NCBI RefSeq assembly: GCF_900166625.1
Contig: NZ_LT800499.1
Location: 2,974,772-3,033,472, forward strand
DNA: 58,701 nt
Source of the DNA: Halobacillus massiliensis
GTDB taxonomy: Bacteria > Bacillota > Bacilli > Bacillales > Halobacillaceae
Reading direction: 5' to 3'
Part shown: positions 49,128 through 53,261 of the stretch, piece after piece
Numbering within the stretch: the stretch's first letter is position 1
Layout: the number at the start of each line of letters is the position of its first letter
Position numbers and translations under genes: made by a program
Notes under the pieces: model-generated
Told to the model about the DNA's origin: nothing
Seen by the model: only the letters and a program-made list of their open reading frames with translations
Databases searched by the model: none

Positions 49128-51161
49128 TTAAACAGCAGTCTGCTTAACAGCTCCCTGCTGCAATTGATACATTTGATGATACTTTCCTTTTAACTGCATA
49201 AGGTCGCTGTGGTTCCCTTTTTCTATCATTGTACCATGATCGAGAACCATGATTTGATCAGCCTGCTGAATAGTTGACAGACGGTGGGCGATTACGAGAG
49301 TGGTCCTCCCTTTTTTTAATACTTCGAGTGCCTTCTGAATAAGTTGTTCGGTTTCTGTATCGATGTTCGCGGTTGCTTCATCTAGTATTAAGATAGCCGG
49401 ATTAAATGCTAAGGCTCTCGCAAATGAAATGAGTTGTCTTTCCCCCATCGACAGTGAGCTTCCTTTTTCCTTTAATGGAGAGTCATATGTTTCAGGCAGC
49501 TTTTCAATAAAACGATCCGCTCCTACAGCCTTTAAGGCTTCTATTGCCTTTTCCCGGGAAATATTTGAATCATTCATGGTAACATTTGATAAAATTGTTC
49601 CCGAGAAAATAAACGGATCCTGTAATACAATTCCCATATGACTGCGAACCTGCTGTCTTGATAAGTTACTAATAGACGCGTCATCAATCTTAATTTTTCC
49701 TTTTTGTGGATCATAAAATCGAAACAGTAAATTCATAATGGAACTTTTTCCAGAGCCAGTATGGCCAACAAATGCAGCTGTTTCTCCAGCCTTTACTTCA
49801 AAGTTTAAATTCTTTAAGATATAATCTTTGTCATCGTACGCAAATGAGACATCTTCAAATTTAATATGACCCTGGTAGCGGGGGAGTTTTTCACCATTTA
49901 CTTTTTCCCCTTTTTCATCGAGCAGTTCAAAAACACGGCCTGCCGATACTCTTGCTTGTTCCAGTTGAGGCAGCTGGTTAACGAGATCCGTTACAGGCTG
50001 GAATAATCGGTTTAAATAATCAACGAATGCATAAAGCACACCTGCTGTTACTAGTCCTTCCGTCCCTATCGATCCTGATCCAAAATACCAAATAAAAGCG
50101 ACAAATGCCAAATTCCTAAGCACATTGACCAGGTTGAAGGAAGTTAACGCACTCAGTCTTACAAGCTTCCGTTGAAAAACAAAGTGTTTTTCATTCAGCT
50201 GTTCAAAGTCAGTCGATACCTGCTGTTCCTGACGAAATGCTTGAATAATAGACATTCCCTGTATAGATTCATTGATATTGCCGTTCATATCACTAACAGC
50301 CGCTCTTACAACTTTATTATATCTTCCGCCCCAGTGCTTATATGCCTTCATCCATAACCAGATGACAGGAAGAAGAAGTAAACAGAACAGCGCAAGTCGT
50401 ATATCAAGCAGAAACAATGCTGTATAAATCCCCGCCATATAAAAGCTGCTCGTCACAAAAGTAGTGAGTACTTTAACATATAGCTCGCGAATTGCTTCTG
50501 TATCGTTTGTCACTCTTGCGACAACTTTTCCAGCTGGCTGGTCTACAAAATAACTAATCGGAAGTCTTTGGAGATGGGCAAACAAGTCATCTCTCATTTG
50601 ACGGATAATCCGGTTTGATGTTTTCTGCAGGACGAATGTATGAATATATTTAAATAAAGCAGCAAAAATCAGCAACCCGGCATATATCGCCAGCAGCCAA
50701 TAGATTGCCCGTTGTTCAGGAGCAAAGAAGCGGTAAAGCTCCTCTAACTTTAACTTCACAGCCTGGACGCTAATTTCCCCATTCGAGGATTTAATCGTCA
50801 TTATACCTTCATTGACTGAGCGGCTGCCGCTGATGGGTACTTTCTCAGATATAAAATAATAATCCCTTCCTGCCTGAAGAATGGTCGCTTCTGCCAATAC
50901 TTGCTTATCCAGATTCTCCAGCCTGTCTGAACGAACATAAAGGGCACCGTTATAAGAAACAGTGTGATCTGATTTTTCGTTCACTTCGTACCATTGATTT
51001 TCAATTCCTACGATATGTTCATCGATCAGCCTCTTTGCGATAAAAGGACCGGTGAGTTCAAGTGATACGGCAAATAAAACACAAATAAGCCCAATGATAA
51101 TCTGCTTTTTAAATAAAAGGGCATAATTCATTAATCTTTTTTCTGTAGAAGGAGTCCTCAT
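49128..51161 (-). CDS. bmrD: BmrD, ABC multidrug exporter subunit
   Basis: A 677-aa ABC half-transporter with a six-helix domain and an ATPase domain: Walker A GHTGSGKSS, Walker B ILILDEATANID with catalytic Glu, signature LSMGERQ. An extracellular insert of about 115 residues (about 33-150) separates TM1 and TM2. This is a hallmark of BmrD of B. subtilis (YheH). It forms a heterodimer with BmrC that pumps out drugs. It overlaps bmrC by 4 bp (ATGA). Confidence 0.93.
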   Translation of the reverse strand: MRTPSTEKRLMNYALLFKKQIIIGLICVLFAVSLELTGPFIAKRLIDEHIVGIENQWYEVNEKSDHTVSYNGALYVRSDRLENLDKQVLAEATILQAGRDYYFISEKVPISGSRSVNEGIMTIKSSNGEISVQAVKLKLEELYRFFAPEQRAIYWLLAIYAGLLIFAALFKYIHTFVLQKTSNRIIRQMRDDLFAHLQRLPISYFVDQPAGKVVARVTNDTEAIRELYVKVLTTFVTSSFYMAGIYTALFLLDIRLALFCLLLLPVIWLWMKAYKHWGGRYNKVVRAAVSDMNGNINESIQGMSIIQAFRQEQQVSTDFEQLNEKHFVFQRKLVRLSALTSFNLVNVLRNLAFVAFIWYFGSGSIGTEGLVTAGVLYAFVDYLNRLFQPVTDLVNQLPQLEQARVSAGRVFELLDEKGEKVNGEKLPRYQGHIKFEDVSFAYDDKDYILKNLNFEVKAGETAAFVGHTGSGKSSIMNLLFRFYDPQKGKIKIDDASISNLSRQQVRSHMGIVLQDPFIFSGTILSNVTMNDSNISREKAIEALKAVGADRFIEKLPETYDSPLKEKGSSLSMGERQLISFARALAFNPAILILDEATANIDTETEQLIQKALEVLKKGRTTLVIAHRLSTIQQADQIMVLDHGTMIEKGNHSDLMQLKGKYHQMYQLQQGAVKQTAV

Positions 51162-52906
51162 TTTCCTGCCTCCTCTGCTTCCAGCTGCTGATGCTCGTAT
51201 TGATCTTTGTACCAGCCATTCAACTGAATTAATTCTTCATGTGTTCCTTCTTCAATTATCTGTCCCTCATCAAGAACGATAATATGATCTGCATGTTTGA
51301 CCGCTGATAATCGGTGAGCTGCTATGAAAGTAGTTTTTCCTTTTCTCTCTTTTCGCAATTGTTCTAAAATACTAGCTTCCGTTTTTCCGTCTACAGCCGA
51401 CATAGCATCATCAAGCAACAGGATTTGCGGATTCATAATAAAGGCTCTTGCTATAGCTACTCTTTGTTTTTGACCTCCTGAAAGTGTCACACCACTCTCC
51501 CCAACAAGAGTATCAAGCCCGCCTGGCAAGTTTTTAATATCATCAAGAAAACAGGACAATTCCATTACCCGGTAAATCTCTTCGTCTGATGCCGTATTTT
51601 TTCCAAACTGTATATTTTCTCTAATCGTTTTTGAAAACAAAACCTGATCTTGTGGTACATATCCGATCCAGCCTCTTGTCACATCAAGTGCCATTTCATT
51701 TAGGGGCATACCATTGATTAGTACAGTACCTTTAAAACTTGGATACTCTCTTAACAACTGTCGAAGAATTGTCGTCTTCCCAGCTCCCGTTTTCCCGACA
51801 ATTCCTATCGTCTGTCCCTGTCTGACTGTAAGGCTTATATTAACTAAGGCTTCTCCATCAGCTTCAGGGTACTTAAAAGTGACATTTTGGAACTCTATTG
51901 TTTCTGGATGCACTACAATTTTGGGCACTTTAGGTGAGACTATATCCGGCTTTTCATTCAATGTTTCATTGACACGGTCAAGAGAAGCATTCCCCCGCTG
52001 CATAACATTGATCAGTTCGCCAACCGCAAACATCGGCCATATCAGCATGCCTAAGTAAACATTAAAGGACACAAGTTCACCTAAAGTAATTACATTTTGG
52101 AAAACTAATGCCGTACCATATCCAAGTCCAATCGTATAGGAAATACCTACAAGAATTGTGATCGTCGGTTCAAACAACGCATCCACCTTAGCCACTTTAA
52201 CGTTTTTGTCGTATACATCCTGGGTCATATGGTTAAAAGTCTTCTCATCATGACTTTCCTGCACATAAGCCCTGATCACCCTTACACCTCTTACAGATTC
52301 TAAGACACTATTATTCATTTCACCGAAGGCATTCTGAGCCTCCATGAACCGGCTGTGAATAACTTTGCCGTAACGATTCATTACATATGCCATAATTGGC
52401 AGCGGCAATAAGGCGGCGATGGTAAGCTTAAAGTTGATCGTAAAACCCATCATAGCGATGATCATAATCATAAAAATTGTGGAATCCACTAAAGTTAGAA
52501 TTCCAAAGCCAGCTGTCATCGTCAGTGCCTTTAGGTCATTGGTACTTCTGGCCATTAAATCCCCTGTTTTGTTGCGGTTAAAGAACCCTGGGGTCATTTT
52601 TAAAAAATGGTTCATTAAATTTGAACGCATCCTTCTTTCAAGCGTTGCAGCCCCGCTAAATAGCGTGTAATCCCATAAGTAAGATAGAGTGTAGCTTAAG
52701 ATGATAATGCCTCCGTAAATGAGCAGAAGCTCTCCAATCCTCTCATACGTTAAGGTATTGAACTGCATCTCATCAATGGCCATTCCCACCAGCTTAGGAG
52801 GAATCAGATCTATCGCACTTACCACAATAAGAGCGGCGATAGCAAACGTGTAACTTTTTCGATATTCTTTAAAAAACCAGCTTAACTTCCATAAAACATT
52901 AAACAA
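51158..52906 (-). CDS. bmrC: BmrC, ABC multidrug exporter subunit
   Basis: A 582-aa ABC half-transporter. Walker A is GKTGAGKTT and the signature LSGGQKQR is complete. Walker B is LLLDDAMSAVDG, with Asp in place of the catalytic Glu. This degenerate site paired with the good Glu of BmrD is the known BmrCD asymmetry. It starts at TTG 52906, with GAGAGGATGATGG upstream, so translation start may be weak. Transcription passes first through a leader with two short ORFs and an attenuator. Confidence 0.93.
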   Translation of the reverse strand: MFNVLWKLSWFFKEYRKSYTFAIAALIVVSAIDLIPPKLVGMAIDEMQFNTLTYERIGELLLIYGGIIILSYTLSYLWDYTLFSGAATLERRMRSNLMNHFLKMTPGFFNRNKTGDLMARSTNDLKALTMTAGFGILTLVDSTIFMIMIIAMMGFTINFKLTIAALLPLPIMAYVMNRYGKVIHSRFMEAQNAFGEMNNSVLESVRGVRVIRAYVQESHDEKTFNHMTQDVYDKNVKVAKVDALFEPTITILVGISYTIGLGYGTALVFQNVITLGELVSFNVYLGMLIWPMFAVGELINVMQRGNASLDRVNETLNEKPDIVSPKVPKIVVHPETIEFQNVTFKYPEADGEALVNISLTVRQGQTIGIVGKTGAGKTTILRQLLREYPSFKGTVLINGMPLNEMALDVTRGWIGYVPQDQVLFSKTIRENIQFGKNTASDEEIYRVMELSCFLDDIKNLPGGLDTLVGESGVTLSGGQKQRVAIARAFIMNPQILLLDDAMSAVDGKTEASILEQLRKERKGKTTFIAAHRLSAVKHADHIIVLDEGQIIEEGTHEELIQLNGWYKDQYEHQQLEAEEAGK

Positions 52907-52937
52907 ATTCCATCATCCTCTCTACATACAAGTACAG

Positions 52938-52994
52938 CTATCCACTTTCTTTCCAGTCTTCTTCTTTTGTCCTTTTAAAAATTTCCATCATCAT
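52938..52994 (-). CDS. short leader ORF next to bmrC
   Basis: An 18-codon ORF, MMMEIFKRTKEEDWKESG, with a strong AGGAGGAGAGAAA site. Its stop is 31 nt before the bmrC start. It lies after the attenuator terminator. It could couple translation into bmrC, which has a TTG start, or encode a small peptide. That it is translated is inferred from the ribosome site. Confidence 0.6.
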   Translation of the reverse strand: MMMEIFKRTKEEDWKESG

Positions 52995-53050
52995 TTTCTC
53001 TCCTCCTGGCCAATTAATTTTATGTGAAGCGGTTTCCCGCAAAACACCAA

Positions 53051-53093
53051 AAAAGCATACGTACTCGCCGTATGCTTTAGAACACAAAGATAC
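53051..53093 (-). promoter_or_regulatory. bmrCD attenuator: terminator/antiterminator
   Basis: On the minus strand AAAGCATACG (53078-53069) pairs with CGTATGCTTT (53061-53052) around a 7-nt loop and ends in T6: a strong terminator upstream of bmrC. The left arm can instead pair with GTATCTTT (53093-53086) to form an antiterminator hairpin, with loop GTGTTCT. The two structures are mutually exclusive. Confidence 0.75.
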
Positions 53094-53135
53094 ATATAGA
53101 GTCACGAACAGACGCAACCCTTTTTTAATACACTT

Positions 53136-53201
53136 TTAACGGACTACCGGGCCACGACACACTATTAAATTGCGCTTTGGAACCATTTTAACTTTTTTCA
53201 T
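53136..53201 (-). CDS. bmrB: bmrCD leader peptide
   Basis: A 21-codon upstream ORF starting MKKVKMVPKRN and ending CRGPVVR, with AAAGGAGGTCACGACG as a near-ideal ribosome site. It begins about 25 nt after the transcription start and ends 43 nt before the antiterminator arm. This is the place of BmrB in B. subtilis, whose translation controls transcription of bmrCD by ribosome-mediated attenuation. It is much shorter than the 54-aa BmrB, so the symbol is by position, not by sequence. Confidence 0.65.
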   Translation of the reverse strand: MKKVKMVPKRNLIVCRGPVVR

Positions 53202-53232
53202 CGTCGTGACCTCCTTTGCTTAATGATTATAT

Positions 53233-53261
53233 ATTATATAGTTATCGGAAAATTTTATCAA
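53233..53261 (-). promoter_or_regulatory. sigma-A promoter of bmr leader
   Basis: TTGATA (53256-53261) and TATAAT (53233-53238) with a 17-bp spacer, read on the minus strand, near consensus. It overlaps the end region of the DUF389 gene by 13 bp distance only. Confidence 0.8.

Follow-up and report, generated by a model that had tools for sequence, protein, structure and literature searches.

Between a promoter and the gene for one half of a multidrug ABC exporter in Halobacillus massiliensis, a salt-loving bacterium, lie two short ORFs, several hairpins and a terminator, and the question raised by this locus is whether they constitute a genuine regulatory leader and, if so, what each of the ORFs contributes to it. 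We addressed this within a window of 58,701 nucleotides, the whole stretch of DNA analysed, and by comparison with the regions upstream of bmrC in related genomes. The features under discussion, all on the (-) strand, are as follows.

53233..53261 (-): promoter, TTGATA (53261-53256), 17-nt spacer and TATAAT (53238-53233); 11/12 matches in a consensus scan
53202..53217 (-): ORF1 ribosome site AAAGGAGG (53217-53210) and element A, GGTCACGACG (53211-53202); A:B duplex -16.8 kcal/mol
53136..53201 (-): ORF1, a 21-codon leader ORF, MKKVKMVPKRNLIVCRGPVVR, from the ORF list; counterpart in 136/146 upstream regions
53149..53159 (-): element B, TGTCGTGGCCC, inside ORF1, pairing with A or C by duplex energies; its frame varies in relatives
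53098..53121 (-): hairpin C:D, C core GGGTTGCG (53120-53113) and D core CGTGACTC (53106-53099), -9.5 kcal/mol, then ATATGTATC
53049..53078 (-): terminator T2, AAAGCATACG-GCGAGTA-CGTATGCTTT plus TTT, -12.4 kcal/mol; T2 by motif in 36/36 family leaders
53018..53047 (-): small hairpin H3 (53047-53024; core GCGGGAAACCGC, 53040-53029) and CACATAAAA (53026-53018); motif in 26/33 family members
53000..53007 (-): ORF2 ribosome site AGGAGGAG, from the sequence
52938..52994 (-): ORF2, 18 codons, MMMEIFKRTKEEDWKESG, stop UAG then C, from the ORF list; positional counterpart of B. subtilis ORF2
52917..52922 (-): bmrC ribosome site GAGAGG, from the sequence
51158..52906 (-): bmrC, starting at TTG and encoding one half of a multidrug ABC exporter; top PDB hits go under the name YheI (BmrC)
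49128..51161 (-): bmrD, partner half-transporter, named by its position beside bmrC

The leader and its relatives

The near-consensus promoter, both ORFs with their ribosome sites, and the terminator stem (53078-53052; 10 pairs, a 7-nt loop and six U in a row, three of them within the stem) 58 nt past the ORF1 stop are all present where the original prediction had placed them, and bmrC begins, as assigned there, at the TTG at 52906, its first residues lining up with those of relatives that mostly have an ATG start. The leader adjoins a bmrC ortholog on its upstream side and has what a bmrCD attenuator calls for: a leader ORF with a ribosome site, a promoter ahead of that ORF, and an intrinsic terminator between the leader start and bmrC. 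The gene upstream of the leader encodes a TIGR00341 family protein. Neither bmrC nor bmrD reached the cut-off of an NCBIfam model among the 25 listed for each, and an Rfam scan of the window returned no match at gathering score. An RNA fold of 53230-52900, suggested earlier as a check, is unexceptional as a whole (z -1.07, with 17/100 shuffles equally good), and the single terminator-like site in the leader is about what chance would give (0.8 expected from shuffles).

It is conservation that distinguishes this leader from a chance arrangement. BmrC orthologs, accepted at E-values up to 1e-150, occur in all 11 genomes of the genus (the source genome included), 35/44 genomes of the family and 256/299 sampled from the order; in the genus containing B. 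subtilis they occur in 43/44 (E up to 1e-200). We compared 146 upstream regions, from which L132, which runs into a contig end, L168, which was misplaced, and L151, from the genome that also supplies L133, had been left out. These regions are related by descent, some being near-identical, and the counts given here are of sequences rather than independent events. A search of the zone 150-575 nt before bmrC found ORF1 in 144/146 regions; removal of eight with poor ribosome sites left 136, starting 192-575 nt before bmrC (median 344), among which some assignments (L069, L075) look false. ORF2 was found in 125/146, and in 107/136 leaders the antisense pairing described below ranked among the best 5% of their own shuffles. 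Conservation in relatives, the decisive check proposed with the original prediction, thus came out in its favour: as judged from sequence, this is a genuine bmrCD leader, and the same layout is met again before bmrC across the order. One member of the same genus, L028, has other sequence where ORF1 would lie: the 600 nt upstream of bmrC contain no ORF1 with a good ribosome site, but ORF2 is kept.

To look beyond the order, 151 genomes were sampled from the class, of which 61 gave a BmrC match. Of the best 30 class loci, 23 from other orders were compared; an ORF2-like ORF ending EGD-UAG was present in two of the three loci of family f49, and the remaining 20 had no ORF2-like ORF by the criterion used, one of them lacking a located start. 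That the leader, or the ORF2 end, might recur elsewhere in a genome was also considered, and rejected on a scan of 41 genomes: the family leader pattern, which diverged copies would escape, was present a single time in 14 genomes, and the ORF2-end pattern, which misses the ORF2 of the source genome (GAC codon) and would miss diverged copies, a single time in 12, each hit lying at bmrC by its coordinates. The reversed control of the family leader pattern gave one occurrence in the 41 genomes.

Antisense pairing in ORF1 and the hairpins beyond it

In most relatives the 3' part of ORF1 is complementary to the ribosome site of the same ORF, and often to its start codon as well. Pairing of A with the ORF1 3' half averaged -16.5 kcal/mol in native leaders, -9.6 in dinucleotide shuffles and -11.7 with partners taken from other leaders; against such partner swaps, 50/136 leaders were within the best 5%. 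The two sides covary, as GGTCACG/CGTGACC, GGCCACG/CGTGGCC, GGTTACG/CGTAACC and GGGTTTGC/GCAAACC. Relative to ORF1, element B occupies all three frames (24, 9 and 3 of the 36 family leaders), and it is therefore the RNA rather than the peptide that is conserved. ORF1 looks like a ribosome-sensing leader ORF, the switch itself being one of RNA that ribosomes probably read.

Element C lies in the left arm of the hairpin that comes first after ORF1, and is similar to A. In the window the competing pairings amount to -16.8 kcal/mol for A:B, -12.2 for B:C (the eight pairs of CGTGGCCC:GGGTTGCG, an alternative already seen in the original prediction) and -7.9 for C:D (-9.5 with one extra pair). The antiterminator drawn there between 53093-53086 and 53078-53070 fared less well: it can be drawn, at -2.7 kcal/mol versus -12.4 for the terminator, and the folds show no mean switch effect on T2. 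Downstream of ORF1, the site that pairs best with B overlaps the left arm of a terminator in 99/136 leaders, a right arm in 6 and no such arm in 31, assignments that are rough since several terminators called in the family merge adjacent hairpins. For the family alone these figures are 20/36, 4/36 and 12/36, the last of them due in part to hairpins of the T1 kind (below) that lack a U run and so escaped terminator detection. Only 51/136 best partners fall within the best 5% of shuffles. The best duplex partner of B in the window is not C; it is the H3 region (-16.4 kcal/mol; 32/200 shuffles equally good), and that of B. subtilis B lies outside the T1 arm (-14.4; 62/200).

Folding of 133 leaders with a ribosome placed on the ORF1 start gave a mean B:C pairing of 0.61, a value inflated by the choice, in each leader, of the hairpin with the highest masked value; the mean was 0.35 for the free leader and 0.10 with the ribosome at the ORF1 stop. 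Equilibrium formation of T2 averaged 0.96 with A free and 0.93 with A covered over 33 leaders, a comparison in which T2 of L046 was missed and that of L058 misplaced (0.0 in both states); in the window it was 1.0 and 1.0, and a clear drop on covering A appeared in only L026 (0.8 to 0.29) and L027 (1.0 to 0.58). Occupancy of the T2 left arm before the right arm is made was likewise similar, at means of 0.56 free and 0.57 masked (33 leaders), the window giving 0.63 free and 0.75 masked with a ribosome on the ORF1 start. B:C can compete with C:D, but folds of the window showed T2 unaffected. A hairpin of the C:D type is present in 36/36 family leaders, by a best-of-region search with no shuffled control, and in many relatives it is followed by a U run, forming terminator T1; in the window it has no U run, and the working terminator there is T2.

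Several further features of this region were observed. Several Halobacillus leaders (e.g. L025-L027, L032, L034) keep the C:D hairpin with no clear U run behind it, as if it served a role other than termination. H3, between T2 and ORF2, is followed by an ACATAAA-like motif in 26/33 family members versus 1.6 expected from shuffles, a motif picked post hoc, and the H3 stem sequences vary between species. A palindromic repeat, CGCCATAAT..GGCGAT, is inserted between T2 and ORF2 in L010 and L012 (Sediminibacillus), repeated in both, and L046 has a similar single palindromic element between the C:D hairpin and T2.

These pairings would allow transcription attenuation at ORF1, with either A:B and C:D formed or else B:C. 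With the ribosome absent or already past, A:B and C:D would form and transcription would end; a ribosome held on the first ORF1 codons, as by 50S-binding drugs, would cover A and leave B to pair with C, so that C:D would be broken and transcription would continue. The ORF1 peptide would carry little weight and the RNA pairing would decide. The stall near CRGPVVR envisaged by the original prediction would have the opposite outcome, since a ribosome there would cover B and favour C:D, while a stall on the first codons would free B. For Halobacillus, we infer both the drug response and the action of such a switch on T2.

The B. subtilis leader (L149, whose BmrC is identical to PDB chain 8t1p_C, YheI, over 581 residues) bears on this proposal. 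The available text of Reilman 2014 (PMC4191407) describes bmrB as a 53-codon GTG ORF ending 119 nt before bmrC. That ORF is found in L149 (1220-1381), with no evident ribosome site; 16 nt upstream of the GTG, in another frame, an ATG ORF of 23 codons, MPRNLRVYQTVSYWRGKPFVLFS (1204-1275), is preceded by GGAAGGAGGG, an ideal ribosome site, and its end is antisense to its own start (-23.5 kcal/mol, 0/100 shuffles equally good). L149 carries A:B, a terminator and ORF2, the last of 26 codons and ending EGG-UGA. The comparison points to a wrong frame in the B. subtilis annotation, the leader ORF being instead the 23-codon one with the ribosome site; the expectation that the Halobacillus peptide would be shorter than its B. 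subtilis counterpart rests on the 53-codon BmrB and would lose its basis with it. Against the correction counts a result in PMC4191407: fused to GFP in the annotated frame, BmrB gave fluorescence when carried on a plasmid, but none when expressed from the chromosome. A literature search, in which subscription papers were thinly covered, found no published correction of the frame.

Induction data in the same source, as far as its available text extends, agree with the switch proposed for ORF1: leader translation is required for induction in B. subtilis, chloramphenicol, erythromycin and lincomycin induce, and recoding of the leader reduces output with lincomycin control retained. The data also bear on the nature of the signal. 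It is quite conceivable, if somewhat short of an even chance, that the leader senses any slow early translation, as from a shortage of charged tRNA or from ribosome defects, with drugs being one cause only. The presence of B in any ORF1 frame accords with this, as does the rise of B. subtilis bmrCD mRNA on tRNA-maturase depletion reported in the available part of PMC10100781; the failure of kanamycin and gentamicin to induce in B. subtilis (PMC4191407, available text) speaks against it.

ORF2 and a possible Rae1 connection

ORF2 was chosen by ribosome site, length and place only; for B. subtilis the automatic choice was an overlapping 17-codon ORF instead of the 26-codon one. Although 21/146 regions have no ORF2, the 125 found share a distinctive end: the last residue is Gly in 115, the penultimate Gly, Ser or Asp in 113 and the third from the end Glu or Asp in 105, such that 98 end in [E/D][S/G]G, 69 of these with UAG. 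UAG is the stop in 86/125 (65/87 distinct ends), compared with 6/109 long ORFs in related loci and 7/50 in the window. Among the 36 family members, the last codons differ by synonymous changes, and it is therefore the peptide end that is kept. The length is 18 codons in 64/125. A ribosome reading through T2 into ORF2 along the open frame 53117-52938 was considered and judged a matter of chance: upstream of ORF2 its frame stays open across the last terminator hairpin in 18/106 leaders (11/33 in the family alone, with no separate control), compared with an average of 15.0 for the other two frames. L069 and L075 have a second ORF2-like ORF, ending EKRLEGG, 325-393 nt before bmrC, as if ORF2 had been duplicated.

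ORF2 is not new in kind, as B. subtilis has one at the same place, which we take to be bmrX, of 26 codons; what appears new is the conserved [E/D][S/G]G end with its preference for UAG. Another target of Rae1, S1025, reportedly has 17 codons and is cleaved after Glu13, before Lys14. In the yrzI region of B. subtilis (L171), a 17-codon ORF, MLRMELLMHYTMEKDQV-UAG, is presumably S1025, and all four yrzI loci examined (L171-L174) contain short ORFs ending EKDQV-UAG, 165-176 nt past the locus centre, that are putative S1025 as well. The putative S1025 shares UAG with most ORF2s and does not end in Gly. A Glu-Lys pair, whose requirement for the cut is not established, is present in B. subtilis ORF2 and in putative S1025, and absent from ORF2 of the window. 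To our knowledge, the substrate rules of Rae1 are open. A Rae1 family gene (PF05991) is present in 41/41 genomes, including that of H. massiliensis (G000:C2:4215960-4216448), and the window has, between attenuator and bmrC, an ORF with a ribosome site, as a Rae1 target of this type would need.

Rae1 is reported to cleave B. subtilis bmrCD mRNA within a newly described cryptic ORF (Deves 2023), and the seven reported candidates for direct decay by Rae1 include bmrC and bmrD. The second ORF, which the original prediction did not know from B. subtilis, was thus already in print for that organism. The cryptic ORF has the same position before bmrC; it differs from ORF2 of the window, which has 18 codons rather than 26, ends ESG-UAG rather than EGG-UGA and has no Glu-Lys pair. 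The most likely role of ORF2 is accordingly to gate mRNA survival via Rae1, whose recognition of the conserved end we infer. ORF2 would be translated on each transcript that escapes attenuation, and its end, [E/D][S/G]G usually before UAG, would make of the terminating ribosome a Rae1 cut site, so that mRNA leaked without drug would be removed.

Translational coupling, in which ribosomes finishing ORF2 would re-start at bmrC about 30 nt on, is a less probable role. The spacing suits it, the distance from ORF2 stop to bmrC start being 28-35 nt in 63/125, ORF2 ribosome sites are good, and an intergenic ORF, mgtQ, promotes translation of the next gene according to the available part of PMC8092293. 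Yet the frame and exact distance between ORF2 and bmrC vary, 90/125 bmrC genes have a ribosome site of their own with at least five matching bases, and RNA structure hiding that site, for which we searched, was rejected as an explanation: no conserved structure was found between ORF2 and bmrC (mean z 0.16; 0/60 sampled below -2). Coupling alone, moreover, needs neither a conserved C-terminus nor UAG. Shut-off is the better-founded role, given the published report of a cryptic ORF in the B. subtilis transcript that Rae1 cleaves. It is improbable that ORF2 encodes a small peptide acting by itself, for example on the pump, with the conserved end as its functional part: third-position changes that preserve the last residues and a maintained short length would fit, but the N-terminal half looks hardly conserved (by eye, unscored) and the preference for UAG would have no reason.

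A probable two-step leader for a multidrug pump

On balance we favour, as the probable if by no means assured reading, a two-step bmrCD leader in which ribosome-controlled attenuation at ORF1 would be followed by ORF2-dependent removal of mRNA. The ORFs, the A:B and B:C complementarity and their conservation are evident in the sequences compared. Against the model stand the formation of T2 whether A is free or covered, the lack of a U run after C:D in the window, the modest number of significant B partners (51/136) with H3 as the best one in the window, the regions without ORF2, and the absence from the window ORF2 of the Glu-Lys pair. That T2 is a plain constitutive leader terminator, the upstream pairings being chance or remnants, agrees with its prediction in either state and with the ordinary fold of the whole leader, and is nevertheless unlikely in view of A:B and B:C complementarity across diverged sequences and of the C:D-type hairpin in every family leader, uncontrolled by shuffles as that search was.

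The design is largely known from B. subtilis, as the original prediction held; what is new is its order-wide conservation and the suggested correction of the BmrB frame. With the bmrBCD leader as described in the available text of Reilman 2014 (PMC4191407) the window shares the operon, a leader ORF, an intrinsic terminator and predicted alternative stems; what sets it apart is an additional terminator, T2, a C:D hairpin that no U run follows, and an ORF1 that ends before the terminator, through which the annotated BmrB (53 codons, GTG) runs. The logic proposed here for ORF1 is the one published for the B. subtilis vmlR leader (PMC9226507, available part), where stalling of a ribosome on a short ORF decides between an anti-antiterminator, an antiterminator and a terminator; the gene and sequence are different, and no second ORF is mentioned for vmlR in that part. 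Salmonella mgtQ is likewise a tiny ORF directly before a transporter gene; as far as the available part of PMC8092293 goes, it acts via structure over the next ribosome site, whereas no such structure was found at bmrC.

Should this reading hold, a one-species observation would turn out to reflect a conserved circuit that gates a multidrug pump twice. Tentatively, and with rather less assurance than for the two-step leader itself, ORF2 may be a peptide-encoded mRNA self-destruct signal kept across the order, in which slow termination at [E/D][S/G]G-UAG would recruit Rae1; the operon would then have a drug-gated entry at ORF1 and a translation-gated exit at ORF2, the BmrB peptide of 2014 would not be the real leader product, and the sensor would be independent of peptide and frame. 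The frame correction is concrete and testable, and the last codons of ORF2 are a likely determinant of Rae1 action. In place of a drug-specific peptide, the sensor would be RNA complementary to its own start, an arrangement that would suit a pump answering many drugs.
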